From NCBI GenBank assembly GCA_017886765.1, contig JAGHJI010000062.1, positions 1 through 64,000 on the forward strand: a DNA stretch of 64,000 bases, written 5' to 3'. Within the stretch, counting starts at the first letter, position 1. Each line of letters begins with the position of its first letter. The position numbers were made by a program, and so were the translations under genes. The notes beneath the pieces were generated by a model. It was not told the origin of the DNA. It saw nothing but the letters and a program-made list of their open reading frames with translations, and did no database searches. Shown here piece by piece: positions 20,011-25,556 of this stretch. This stretch comes from Eubacterium sp. (lineage in GTDB: Bacteria > Bacillota > Clostridia > Oscillospirales > Acutalibacteraceae).

Positions 20011-20334
20011 TTATTTATCTCTGACTACAACGGCTGTGCCTGTGGCGGACACCATAAGCATATTGCCCTGACCCAGCACCTCATAATCAATATCAACACC
20101 CACAACAGCGTTGGCGCCCATCTGGGACGCTCTGGACTGCATTTCCGCAAGGGCGTTTTCACGGGCTTTTGTCAGTTCCTCTTCATAGCCGCTGGAACGG
20201 CCGCCGACAAAGTTTCTGATAGAAGCGCCGAAATCCTTAATGAAATTTATACCGCTCACAACCTCGCCGGTGACGATTCCTTTGTATTCGGTGATGACTC
20301 CGTTTTCAAGTGTGTTTGTTGTTGCACAAATCAT
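20011..20334 (-). CDS. UPF0145 (YbjQ-like) protein
   Basis: A 107-aa protein of the YbjQ/UPF0145 family, a small pentameric beta-rich fold once described as putative heavy-metal binding. The diagnostic segments are [24 protein letters not shown] and [25 protein letters not shown]. It overlaps folP by 4 bases and is 2 bases from folB, so it is cotranscribed and translationally coupled inside the folate operon. The family role is unknown; the position hints at a link with pterin or folate metabolism. Confidence 0.93.
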
Positions 20335-21137
20335 AATTCAACATATCCTTTCATATTTTGGGCCATTAAAATGCCCTGTTTTTCATTTTTTACATCGTGG
20401 ATACGGATGATATCCGCTCCGCCGAAGATTGCCGCCGTATCCGCCGCAATATTGCCGTATGTCCTTTCCTTAGGTTCCGGCTGACTGCTACCCTGCCCGA
20501 TAACCCTTTTTCTTGAAGTACCCAGCAGGAGCGGATAACCGCTGATTTTATATTTTTCAACATTCGCCAGAAGGCGCATATTTTCATCATAATCCTTATC
20601 AAAACCGATACCCATATCAAAGCAGATCTGAGATTGATTTATGCCGAGGGCAATGCACTCTTCCGCTGATTTTTCAAAAAACTTTTTTACATCATCCGGC
20701 GTACCGTGGCCGTTATGCATGATGATCCAGCCCGCACCGGTCTTTCTGATAATTTCCGCCATTTTGCCGGAAAGAATACCGCTGACGTCATTGATTATAT
20801 CCGCGCCCGATCTAAGCGCTTTTTCGGCAACAGAAGGATAATAAGTGTCCACGGATACCGGAACTGTCAAAACGCCGTTTAACGCTGTCAGAACAGGCTC
20901 CAGACGGCTCCATTCCTCCTTATCGGATACCGGCGTATGTCCCGGACGGGTAGACTGGCCGCCTATATCTATCATATCCGCGCCGTCTTTCTCAAGCGCG
21001 AGGGCACGGCTGACGGCATCCTCGGTAAAAAAATAATCTCCTCCGTCTGAAAAAGAATCGGGGGTGACGTTCAAAATCCCCATAATCAGGATTTTTTTGC
21101 CGTATTCAATGTTTTTATCTCTGCATTTCCAAATCAT
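20331..21137 (-). CDS. folP: dihydropteroate synthase
   Basis: Joins 6-hydroxymethyl-dihydropterin pyrophosphate with p-aminobenzoate; the sulfonamide target. A 268-aa TIM barrel with [34 protein letters not shown] and [11 protein letters not shown]. It lies 19 bases after folE and overlaps the next gene by 4 bases. Confidence 0.97.
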
Positions 21138-21156
21138 AAAACTGTTCTTTCAAAAA

Positions 21157-21714
21157 TTATTTGACAAGCAATGCCAGCACTTCGGCTCTTGTTCTGGCAT
21201 CGGTTCTCATTCTTCCTCTGAGGGCAGAGGTCTGGGTCTTTGCACCCGGGGCTTTCGCTCCCCGTATCGTCATGCACATATGCTCCGCCTCCATAATGAC
21301 CGCAACGCCCTGGGGATGAAGATTGTCATTGAGAAAATCTGCGATATCGTGGGTAAGCCTTTCCTGCACCTGGGGCTTTTTCGCGAAATTGTCAACGATG
21401 CGCGCCAGCTTTGAAAGGCCGATGATCTCATTGTCGCTGGGAATATAGGCGATATGCGCCTTGCCGACAAAGGGCAGGAGATGATGCTCGCACATGGATG
21501 AAAAGGGAATATCCCTTACAATAACCATTTCATCATTTGATTTTTCATCAAAAAATTTAAGATGCTTTTTCGGGTCTTCCGTAAGTCCGGCAAACATTTC
21601 CTCATACATATTCGCCACTCTTTTCGGCGTTTCCGCCAGACCGGGTCTGTCGGGGTCTTCACCAACGGCAATCAGAATTTCCCTTACAGCGTTCATGATT
21701 CTCTCTTTATCCAT
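21157..21714 (-). CDS. folE: GTP cyclohydrolase I
   Basis: The first enzyme of folate synthesis: GTP to 7,8-dihydroneopterin triphosphate and formate. The length is 185 aa. Zn2+ ligands are visible in [21 protein letters not shown] and later [14 protein letters not shown]. It is the first folate gene of the operon, 25 bases after the degenerate LCP-like gene. Confidence 0.97.
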
Positions 21715-21739
21715 AATTCACCTTTTATTTTATACAAAA

Positions 21740-22660
21740 TTATTTCGTAAAATATCCTTTTACTTTCTGCAGACTTTCATCCGTTATGGTATTTCCGTCG
21801 TATTCACAAACGGCGCTGTATGCGCCCACTCCCGTCTGCTCATCCGCTAGGACGGTCAAACCGTCGCCCGCAAGGGAAAAATCCCTGACGGTAATATTGG
21901 TATTTGCCGCCGCTACAAAAAGATTGAACAGTGTTTCACTGTTTTCAAGATTTTCACTGTTCATCTGCTGCAAAAGACTGTTTAAAACCAGATCGTTGGC
22001 GGCGGAAATATTATTCTCCTGGTCAACATAATAGCGGATGAGATTGATATACTCACTGCCGTCTATCTCCTGTTCCCCGGCTTTCATTCTGACCGAATAG
22101 CTGACCTTTTCACCTTCACTTCTGAATCTTATTTCAGAGGCGATTGGATAATTAAATACACCAAGCTCGTCGAAAAAATCGGAAAAATCACTGCTTTGCA
22201 TATCAATATAATAATCAAAATCCGTCCCCATCAGGCTTTCAACCGCCGTCTGAACATTCTGGACACCGGACTGACTGTAAATATCCGCAAGGCTGTTCCC
22301 GTCGCAGAGCGTATCGGCTTTCAATACGGTTGTTTTATATGAAATATTATCCAGATCCACCTGAACCAGAATGGTGAAAAGCAGGTTTTCATCGCTGTTT
22401 ACAAGAACGATAAAATTAGTCTTTCCGCTGACCTGGGGCAAAGGTTCCTCCTGTGTGTCGGAAACATTTGTTAACTCCAGATTATCGGGCGCAAAAAACT
22501 TTTTCGCGCTGAAATCATATCTGACGGCTAAAACAGTCACAAAAACAACGGTAAACACAATAATGAGAACCAGCGCAGTAATCAGAATTTTCTGCTCGGC
22601 AGATCTTTTTTTATTCGTTTTTGAAAAATAAATATCACCGCGGTTTTTAAAAATCCTCAT
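21740..22660 (-). CDS. degenerate LCP-like membrane protein
   Basis: A 306-aa protein with a basic N-terminus, one membrane helix at about 25-46 and an extracellular domain. The domain follows the LCP layout: FIVLVNSDENLLFTILVQVD aligns with the IL-GVD...SDTIMLVSID block, then a KLNAAYSYGG-like segment, then the MGTDFDYYIDMQSSDFSDFFDELGVF block. All conserved catalytic Arg are missing: RSD reads NLL, PRDT reads KADT, and the terminal ARTERQR block is absent. It is therefore probably a non-catalytic relative or a divergent protein. It is divergent from dnaA and heads the folate operon. Confidence 0.7.
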   Translation of the reverse strand: MRIFKNRGDIYFSKTNKKRSAEQKILITALVLIIVFTVVFVTVLAVRYDFSAKKFFAPDNLELTNVSDTQEEPLPQVSGKTNFIVLVNSDENLLFTILVQVDLDNISYKTTVLKADTLCDGNSLADIYSQSGVQNVQTAVESLMGTDFDYYIDMQSSDFSDFFDELGVFNYPIASEIRFRSEGEKVSYSVRMKAGEQEIDGSEYINLIRYYVDQENNISAANDLVLNSLLQQMNSENLENSETLFNLFVAAANTNITVRDFSLAGDGLTVLADEQTGVGAYSAVCEYDGNTITDESLQKVKGYFTK

Positions 22661-22769
22661 ACTGCACCTCCCTGAAAATCAATTATACAATACGGCTGTT
22701 TATTTTACAAGTATTATTCTGTACTAATATATTAAATATATATATTGATATATATTTCTTAATTAAATA

Positions 22770-22798
22770 TTGATTTAATAATTAAAAACTGATATAAT
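22770..22798 (+). promoter_or_regulatory. dnaA promoter
   Basis: TTGATT, 17 bases, TATAAT, 57 bases before the dnaA ATG. The 195-base gap from 22661 is very AT-rich; no consensus DnaA box (TTATCCACA) was seen in it. Confidence 0.75.
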
Positions 22799-22855
22799 GG
22801 ATTTTATACAATAGATTATTACGCTTTTTTATATAAAAAACTGAAGGAGGTACAT

Positions 22856-24208
22856 ATGGATTCGTTTAATGACGTTTGGCAGGCTGTCCTGGATTATATA
22901 AAATCAAAAGTTAACGAAACCGCTTATAACCTATGGATAAAGATCGTAAAATTTGACGGTTTCAATAATTCGACCGTTACTCTGCGTTTTCCAAAACCAA
23001 TGCATCTGGAGATTGTAACATCTCAGTACGGAGAGCTTTTTGAAGAAGCTTTTGAGAATGTGCTGGGTTTTAAAGTAAATATTTCATATGTCTGCGACGA
23101 CGTTTTTGAAAACGAGAAAGAAAGCGGCAATACCACATATCAGGATAAGCATCTGGAGGATTACAGAAATTCACAGTTTACCTTTGAGAATTTTATTGTG
23201 GGTCCCAGCAACAGATTTGCCTATGCCGCCGCTAAAGCCGTGGCTTCTGACCCGGGGTCAAGACTTTCCTCCGGTTCAAGCTTCAGCAATTATAATCCGC
23301 TGTTCATATACGGTAATTCCGGTCTGGGAAAGACGCACATACTAAATGCAATCTGTCACGAGGTTGAAAAGAATTTTCCGGATATGAATATCATGTACGT
23401 CCGGGCAGAACAGTTTGCCAATGAATTTTACCAGGCGCTGCAGAACAAGACGATTGATGAGTTCCACAATAAATACAGAAATAATATTGACGTTTTTCTG
23501 ATTGACGATATACAGTTTATTTCAGGCAAGACATCAACGGAAGAGGAATTTTTCCATACCTTTGACACACTGGTATACGGCGGAAAACAGGTCGTTCTTA
23601 CCTCCGACAGACCGCCGAGAGATATTCAGTCCCTGACGGACAGACTGAAATCAAGATTTGAAGATGGTCTGCTGGCTGATATCCAGCCCCCTGAATTTGA
23701 AACAAGATGCGAAATAATAAAGCGCAAAGCAAAGCTTCTTAATTTTGAAATTTCAGATCAGGTAGTCAGCTATATTGCTGAAAAAATAAAATCCAACATT
23801 CGTCAGCTTGAAGGCGTTACAAAAAAACTCTATGCCCTTTGTGATATAAACGATCACACTCCGACGATTGCCTTGGCCCAAAGCGTTATAAAAGTCATTA
23901 TGGAAGATACCCAGCCCCTGCCCGTCACAATTCAGAAAATTGTGGACGAGGTCAGCAGGACAACGGGAATTTCCGTTGAGGATATCTACAGCAAGGTACA
24001 GAAAGCCAATATATCCCACGCGAGAAAAATCACTTTCTATGTTATCAGAAAAGTGACAAATATGAGTTATGAAGATATAGGCGAGGAATTTGACAAACAC
24101 CATTCAACGGTCATCTACAATATCGACCAGATTGAAAAGGAAATGGAAAAAAATTCAAAGCTGGCAAGACAAATAAACGATATTATCAGCAATGTAAAGA
24201 CGGAATAG
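22856..24208 (+). CDS. dnaA: chromosomal replication initiator DnaA
   Basis: An ATP-dependent initiator of 450 aa that melts oriC and loads helicase. Domain I (1-75) is typical; the linker domain II is short. The AAA+ domain carries Walker A GNSGLGKT (153-160), Walker B FLIDDIQFISGKTSTEEEFFHTF and the sensor/box VII region. In domain IV the DNA-binding signature, GGRDHTTV in E. coli and Bacillus, reads DKHHSTV (413-419): one residue shorter, with Arg to Lys and Asp to His at base-contact positions. The ribosome site GAAGGAGG precedes the ATG. It is followed by the repeat-rich oriC candidate and dnaN. Confidence 0.98.
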   Translation: MDSFNDVWQAVLDYIKSKVNETAYNLWIKIVKFDGFNNSTVTLRFPKPMHLEIVTSQYGELFEEAFENVLGFKVNISYVCDDVFENEKESGNTTYQDKHLEDYRNSQFTFENFIVGPSNRFAYAAAKAVASDPGSRLSSGSSFSNYNPLFIYGNSGLGKTHILNAICHEVEKNFPDMNIMYVRAEQFANEFYQALQNKTIDEFHNKYRNNIDVFLIDDIQFISGKTSTEEEFFHTFDTLVYGGKQVVLTSDRPPRDIQSLTDRLKSRFEDGLLADIQPPEFETRCEIIKRKAKLLNFEISDQVVSYIAEKIKSNIRQLEGVTKKLYALCDINDHTPTIALAQSVIKVIMEDTQPLPVTIQKIVDEVSRTTGISVEDIYSKVQKANISHARKITFYVIRKVTNMSYEDIGEEFDKHHSTVIYNIDQIEKEMEKNSKLARQINDIISNVKTE

Positions 24209-24443
24209 TAAAACAAATTTTTCAACATTTTTTTATTTTTCCGCAGATCATTTTTTAACAACGGCTGTTAAAAAAATTTTTTTCAACAACGTCAACATTT
24301 TTTCAACAATGAAAAATATAAAAAATGTTGTTCTGTTTTTCTTTTTAAACGGTAATTCTTAATCGTTTTTAACAATTTCAACACCATATATTACTACTAC
24401 TAAAAGCTAAATATTTCATAATAAATTGACGGAGGATAGATTT
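24209..24443 (+). other. oriC: candidate oriC (dnaA-dnaN gap with TTTTCAACA repeats)
   Basis: An extremely AT-rich gap with iterated 9-mers, all in + orientation: TTTTCAACA at 24219, 24280 and 24300; TTTTTAACA at 24252 and 24366; ATTTCAACA at 24375; ACGTCAACA at 24289. They are related to, but not, TTATCCACA. After the last one comes TACTACTACTA (24392-24402), which looks like DnaA-trio triplets (3'-GAT-5' on the other strand). A 10-bp dyad TTTTTTAACA / TGTTAAAAAA (24251-24275) may also act as the dnaA terminator. The origin role is inferred. Confidence 0.65.
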
Positions 24444-25556
24444 ATGAAATTCACCTGCAATACAAAAGAATTAAGCGAAGCCTGTTCAAATGTAATGAGA
24501 GCGGTAAGCACAAAAGTAACGATTCCTACCATTGAAGGAATACTGATCGAGTGCGGGTCCGATACATTAAGCCTTACCGGATATGATTTTGAAGTCGGTA
24601 TAAATACCATATTACAGGCAAATGTAACAGAACCCGGAGCAATTGTAATCAATGCCAAGGTTTTAAGTGATATTATAAGAAAATTGCCTGACGGCAATGT
24701 TACCTTTGAGATAAGCGGCACGTCCGTTTCCATTATCAGCGGCGCTGCGCAGTATAATATTATGGGTATTGACGCGGAGGATTATCCCGAACTTCCGTCT
24801 GTTTCCGGCGGATATCCGCTGTTTTTGAATGAAGCCGTTTTGCAGGGAATGGTCGCCCAGACCCTCTTTGCCGTTGCAGATAACGAATCAGCAAAACCGG
24901 TACATACGGGACTTAAATTTGAACTGACGCTCAATCAATTAAGACTGATAGGCGTTGACGGATACCGTCTTGCAATCCGAACGGAAACAGTTCAGTATGA
25001 CGGTGAGGATATCAGCTTTATCGTACCCAAGAAAACAATCAGAGAACTTATTAAACTGATGGGAACGGAAAGCGATAAAAATATTTCCATCAGTGTAGGA
25101 AAAAGACATATTGTATTTGATGTGGAAAATTACAGTGTGATAAGCCGCCTGCTTGACGGAGATTTTCTTGATTATAACGCAGCAATTCCAAAAACAGCGT
25201 CCACCACGGTTTTGATCAATACGGATGACGCAATTGAATGTATTGAAAGAACGCTTCCCGTTATAGAAAATGATAAAAAGAATCCTATCAGATGTTTATT
25301 TGACAATGATGAGATGCGTGTTTCCACCGTATCCAGTCTGGGAAGAGTTGTGGATTATACGCATGCCAATGTGAGCGGTGACAGGGTTGAAATCGGCTTC
25401 AATTCAAAATTTATTCTGGATGCTCTGCACGCAGCAGATACAGACCAGGTAAAGATCGAGCTGAACAGCGCCGTAAGTCCTGCGAAGGTTATGCCGATTA
25501 ATGATGACAGCTTTTTGTTCTTAGTTCTTCCCATGAGGCTGAAAAATGAAAATTAA
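24444..25556 (+). CDS. dnaN: DNA polymerase III beta clamp
   Basis: Sliding clamp of 370 aa that tethers Pol III and other DNA enzymes. It has three repeated clamp domains, beginning MKFTCNTKELSEACSNVMRAVS and ending with the family's C-terminal MPINDDSFLFLVLPMRL. The start is moved from 24426 to ATG 24444, which has GGAGG nine bases upstream. It overlaps the next gene by 11 bases. Confidence 0.98.
   Translation: MKFTCNTKELSEACSNVMRAVSTKVTIPTIEGILIECGSDTLSLTGYDFEVGINTILQANVTEPGAIVINAKVLSDIIRKLPDGNVTFEISGTSVSIISGAAQYNIMGIDAEDYPELPSVSGGYPLFLNEAVLQGMVAQTLFAVADNESAKPVHTGLKFELTLNQLRLIGVDGYRLAIRTETVQYDGEDISFIVPKKTIRELIKLMGTESDKNISISVGKRHIVFDVENYSVISRLLDGDFLDYNAAIPKTASTTVLINTDDAIECIERTLPVIENDKKNPIRCLFDNDEMRVSTVSSLGRVVDYTHANVSGDRVEIGFNSKFILDALHAADTDQVKIELNSAVSPAKVMPINDDSFLFLVLPMRLKNEN

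Follow-up and report, generated by a model that had tools for sequence, protein, structure and literature searches.

Joint change of DnaA residue 433 and base 6 of the DnaA box in relatives of a gut Eubacterium with a predicted dnaA-dnaN origin

Asp433 of DnaA (E. coli numbering) is a base-contacting residue that is highly conserved in all classes of bacteria, and its published contact is at base pair 7 of the DnaA box (PMC8235120, PMC5043019, PMC7561715). The boxes of Cyanobacteria (TTTTCCACA) and Thermotoga (AAACCTACCACC; PMC10225481) are like those described here in following a species-specific consensus, but A at base 6 is reported for neither of them. In Epsilonproteobacteria the box core is TTCAC, a change proposed to accompany changes in helix 5 of domain IV (PMC5043019); the altered base is base 5 and D433-H434 is kept, whereas in the group studied here base 6 changes with residue 433. 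The Mollicutes box is TT(T/A)TC(C/A)ACA and that of A. laidlawii is TT(T/A)T(C/T)(C/A)ACA (PMC3322544, citing Cordova 2002). As quoted there, these boxes share C or A at base 6 and C or T at base 5 with the present locus, but the consensus is given without a link to DnaA residues, and our lineage belongs to the Clostridia. Because the Mollicutes consensus quoted in PMC3322544 already allows either C or A at this base, TTTTCAACA boxes as such are not new. A search of the open-access literature found no report of covariation between residue 433 and base 6.

Among the closest described systems is the basal unwinding layout (BUS) in the dnaA-dnaN gap of, for example, Bacillus subtilis. The present locus has the same tandem boxes, short spacer, trios and AT-rich DNA before dnaN. 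It differs in that its boxes are TTTTYAACA rather than TTATCCACA, and in that the trio-proximal pair abuts with no spacer between the boxes.

Gene neighbourhood and box array

The window, the whole stretch of 64,000 nucleotides that was analysed, is part of a 161-kb contig (C19) in a 1.9-Mb draft genome of 91 contigs. The source is an uncultured gut bacterium, and the gap described below is its chromosome replication origin as predicted from sequence. The DnaA of this genome shares 96% identity with that of Candidatus Eubacterium faecigallinarum; Eubacterium coprostanoligenes ATCC 51222, which has a D433 DnaA, is a member of the same genus. The intact dnaA (22856–24208, plus strand) encodes a DnaA of 450 aa with a full-length match to NCBIfam TIGR00362 (458 bits, curated cut-off 343.9), and a single Bac_DnaA_C match across the genome indicates one copy. 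It is followed on the plus strand by dnaN (24444–25556), yaaA, recF, gyrB and gyrA. The dnaA-dnaN gap (24209–24443, 235 bp) is bounded exactly by the dnaA stop codon (24208) and the dnaN ATG (24444). Upstream of dnaA, the usual rpmH-rnpA cluster is replaced by an LCP-like gene (match under the curated cut-off), folE and folP (20331–22660, minus strand). The 195-bp gap between these genes and dnaA (22661–22855) is extremely AT-rich and has no boxes, and an array of box-like 9-mers was not found in it.

The seven AACA-type 9-mers listed by the initial annotation are all present on the plus strand of the dnaA-dnaN gap (starts 24219, 24252, 24280, 24289, 24300, 24366 and 24375). An inverted TTTTTAACA at 24266–24274 (minus strand) had been overlooked. 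This predicted box is conserved, with TTTTCCACA in sister L123. On the plus strand, TTTTCAACA is found at 24219–24227, 24280–24288 and 24300–24308 and TTTTTAACA at 24252–24260; all four are predicted DnaA boxes. The positions of all four are kept in sisters; at the place of the box at 24219, L103 and L118 have TTTTCCACA and L123 has TTTTTAACA. A weak box, ACGTCAACA (24289–24297), abuts the preceding box and is ATATAAACA or ATATGCACA in sisters. Matches and the sister alignment predict a trio-proximal pair of TTTTTAACA (24366–24374) and ATTTCAACA (24375–24383). Another probable box, TTTTCCGCA (24237–24245, plus strand; C6, G7), was absent from the earlier list, and its aligned place is occupied by TTTTCCACA in the relatives L210, L104 and L105. 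Every exact match in the array has A6, and TTTTCCGCA is the sole C6 site. A search of the 235-bp gap for TTWTNCACA gave 0 matches; the array is not one of canonical boxes with C at base 6.

The cluster of 9-mers in the gap is beyond chance. The window contains 15 exact TTTTYAACA words against 2.6 expected in dinucleotide shuffles (at most 8 in any shuffle). Six of them fall within the gap, while any other 235-bp stretch in the first 160 kb of the contig has at most one.

Unwinding module and location of the origin

The sequence reported after the 9-mers, ATTACTACTACTA, is present at 24390–24402. Within it lie DnaA-trios (24391–24402, plus strand), the complement of 3'-AAT-GAT-GAT-GAT-5' (TTACTACTACTA), and the AT-rich stretch that follows (24403–24430, plus strand) is the probable unwinding region. 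The BUS rule (PMC8287927) was applied as a box or tandem boxes 0–16 bp before at least three NAN trios, with a TTTTYAACA-like box allowed. The box pair at 24366–24383, a 7-bp spacer and the four trios conform to this layout. Runs of at least three CTA/TTA trios occur in 28 of 65 gaps of the genus, compared with 5.7 in mononucleotide shuffles, and in 28 of these 28 a box-like 9-mer (at most 2 mismatches) ends 0–8 bp before the run. Alignment of the gap with seven sister gaps showed that box positions are held in place, which answers the proposed check of 9-mer conservation, and the pair and trio module (24366–24402) is likewise kept in place in seven relatives' gaps.

The cumulative GC skew of contig C19 has its minimum at dnaA, at 22693 (24000 with 2-kb bins), as measured over a 160-kb stretch and not a closed chromosome. 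In a relative (G783:C2) the minimum is at 167460 and dnaA at 167510, over a 240-kb stretch that is again not a closed chromosome. The earlier proposal that the gap (24209–24443, plus strand) is oriC thus agrees with the skew minimum, the 9-mer cluster, the positional conservation and the layout of box pair and trios. Because the skew minimum is at dnaA, the box positions are kept and the basal unwinding layout is a known one, the reading of the gap as a predicted oriC with a Bacillus-type unwinding module is well supported. Some relatives (L026, L033, L034, L220, L223 and L227–L229) have a 3-bp gap, or lack both a recognised dnaN and a box array after dnaA, and their origin is probably elsewhere than between dnaA and dnaN.

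Residue 433 and base 6 among relatives

In domain IV of the window DnaA, the segment FDKHHSTV corresponds to FGGRDHTTV of E. coli and is one residue shorter before the motif in the alignment, so that the recognition helix is KHHSTV in place of RDHTTV. His415 (codon 24098–24100, plus strand) aligns with E. coli Asp433, and Gln382 (codon 23999–24001, plus strand) with Arg399, a minor-groove contact. The DNA-reading residues R399, D433 and H434 are therefore Q, H and H in this protein.

The initial annotation inferred a shifted box consensus near TTTTCAACA. Relatives with N, T or Q433 do show a true shift to A6, but the lineage of the window mixes C6 and A6. At kept positions, bases 5 and 6 vary from species to species in the sister alignment. 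The nearest sister, L103, whose DnaA is 96% identical and shares the helix, combines two TTTTCCACA with three TTTTCAACA, so that 2 of its 5 boxes are C6. Since sisters with the same helix have TTTTCCACA and TTTTCAACA at orthologous sites, "shifted" is too strong for this lineage, and base 6 is better described as relaxed (C or A) than as moved. Eight copies of TTTTCCGCA occur at differing places in six H433 gaps of the window's group, whereas two related D433 gaps within the genus share a single TTTTTCGCA. This distribution would fit relaxed reading of base 7 too.

Residue 433 and base 6 change together across relatives. The sample comprised 187 different dnaA genes, each with the gap that follows it, taken from the genus, family and order and from a few other groups. 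Asp occupies position 433 in 102 of the proteins, His in 41, Asn in 31 and Thr in 10, while Ser, Glu and Gln occur once each; a tree built from DnaA minus domain IV requires at least 32 changes of this residue. L014 and CAG:678 (L151) are examples of N433 relatives. To compare the sites, we recorded which letter stands at base 6 of TTWTNxAC(A/C) within the gaps, a search word that fixes the other box positions. Counted in this way, A6:C6 within the genus is 85:78 for D433, 67:32 for H433 and 97:8 for N433, and outside the genus 57:112, 11:33 and 33:3. After further lineages were added, the totals for 195 origins are 157:203 (D), 89:73 (H), 169:12 (N) and 31:1 (T/Q/S), so that N/T/Q/S433 origins combined are nearly all A6 (C6:A6 = 13:200). 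An EM motif fit was discarded, as it drifted into T-rich background.

Phylogenetic regression of log(A/C) used the gene tree of DnaA minus domain IV and included gap GC as a covariate; a Brownian-type model stands behind the p-values. With the 187 genes, the effect of N433 was +1.76 (p = 1e-9), that of T/Q/S433 +1.76 (p = 0.003; 6e-4 with the added lineages) and that of H433 +0.47 (p = 0.04; 0.06 with the added lineages). The N433 effect was significant separately within (4e-5) and outside the genus (9e-6), and H433 had a weak positive effect within the genus (p = 0.03). When all 403 residue states common in domain IV were screened without bias by the same regression, 433N ranked first (3e-7) and 433D second (4e-5); N433 had no effect on base 3 (p = 0.63) or base 9. 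Further N433 DnaA were sought by DNA pattern after the rule had been set, and eight unused origins from three families gave 28 A6 and 1 C6; their addition (195 origins) brought the p-value for N433 to 9.6e-12. On the tree with the added lineages, residue 433 switched between the D/H and N/T/Q/S classes at least 15 times. An independent-pairs test had too few informative pairs: of 8 supported pairs, 3.5 agreed on average, 0.1 disagreed and the rest were equal (median p = 0.25). Pairs of H versus D showed no trend, in a comparison that is underpowered. Strict DNA patterns for N433 gave few matches in the phylum and the class of G169, so the rule is drawn mainly from one order.

Other variants were observed among relatives. 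In L012 and L140, genus relatives with KDRTTV, a change of H434 to R goes with boxes ending in ACC and not ACA (regression p = 1e-16, from only four R434 tips), while L091 (RDRTTI) keeps mostly ACA; R434 with the box end ACC is a possible second residue-base link. T or Q433 goes with a purine at base 5 (TTTTAAACA, TTTTGAACA; p = 2e-6) in L231, L236, L238, L239, L242–L244 and L150. The only E433 DnaA (L141, REHSTV) is accompanied by several TTTTCTACA and TTATCTACA sites with T at base 6. In L020 the loop that precedes the recognition helix of DnaA is longer (GGNGEKGKNHSTV), and the boxes are A6.

Alternative explanations and proposed mechanism

Base composition alone might have produced the A6 boxes if AT mutation pressure turned C6 to A6 in AT-rich origins and DnaA were irrelevant. 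Gap GC is indeed a significant covariate (p = 1e-5 with the added lineages), the gap of the window is very AT-rich, and A6 is also abundant in some D433 gaps of AT-rich genomes. However, N433 gaps contain hardly any C6 whatever their GC level, and at 35% GC or more A6:C6 is 26:0 for N433 against 22:72 for D433; base composition is for this reason not the explanation of the pattern. The N433 effect also persists with GC in the regression, and base 3 shows no link to N433, so composition as the sole cause is improbable, though AT pressure also contributes to A6 in the window. The reading in the initial annotation, in which His433 itself would specify A6 and fix a shifted TTTTCAACA consensus in the lineage, draws on the six exact A6 boxes, the absence of TTWTNCACA from the gap and the weak H433 effect inside the genus. 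Sister L103, with C6 boxes beside the same helix, and the H433 taxa outside the genus led us to reject the idea that His433 fixes A6; the H433 counts turn from mostly A inside the genus to mostly C outside it, and the H-versus-D pairs lack a trend. We consider this reading unlikely. It is very improbable that the 9-mers are T-tract repeats for another protein, with the origin elsewhere. Runs of T make TTTT matches easier, but base 6 covaries with the DNA-reading residue 433 above any other position of domain IV, the trio-proximal pair and the trios are conserved, and the skew minimum is at dnaA.

The best explanation, in which we have good confidence, is that the gap is oriC, that H433 relaxes the reading of the box and that N, T or Q433 reads A6. 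DnaA would bind an array of eight or nine 9-mers, and the last abutting pair (24366–24383) may guide it onto the trios (24391–24402), where the duplex would open. His in place of Asp433, possibly by direct contact, would relax the reading of base pairs 6 and 7, so that C6 or A6 and sometimes CCGCA is accepted. Relaxed reading would let origin sites drift to TTTTYAACA, and with Asn, Thr or Gln at 433 C6 would no longer be read and nearly all boxes would become A6. In chemical terms, the amino groups of C6 and A7 could donate hydrogen bonds to a carboxylate, and Asn would pair well with adenine. Several observations do not fit this explanation easily. H433 outside the genus is mostly C6, and because of this and the weak H433 effect His alone is not a full explanation of A6 in the window. 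The D433 groups MDHSSV and RDHSTM use mostly A6. Finally, the published D433 contact is base pair 7, while the covarying base 6 is its neighbour.

Changes of the sites before the residue are plausible, since D433 tolerates both letters and N/T/Q433 origins are nearly without C6. In one family (L044, L050 and L273–L277) the RDHSTM members are mostly A6 and another genus has RNHSTM, and this family is a candidate case of such an order.

DnaA and its 9-bp box are usually treated as near fixed across bacteria. Our data suggest, as a fairly likely reading, that DnaA carries a natural specificity switch at residue 433, with Asp reading C6 or A6, His relaxed at bases 6 and 7, and Asn, Thr or Gln reading only A6 (Thr and Gln also a purine at base 5). 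The switch would have happened repeatedly within a single clostridial order and would each time have converted every site of the array; probably the sites drifted first, while DnaA was tolerant, and the residue followed later. Origin-finding software counts TTATCCACA-like words, and TTTTYAACA-type origins are therefore under-scored. With one residue following a single base in six to nine sites of an essential locus, this is a clean case of co-change between a regulator and all its sites.
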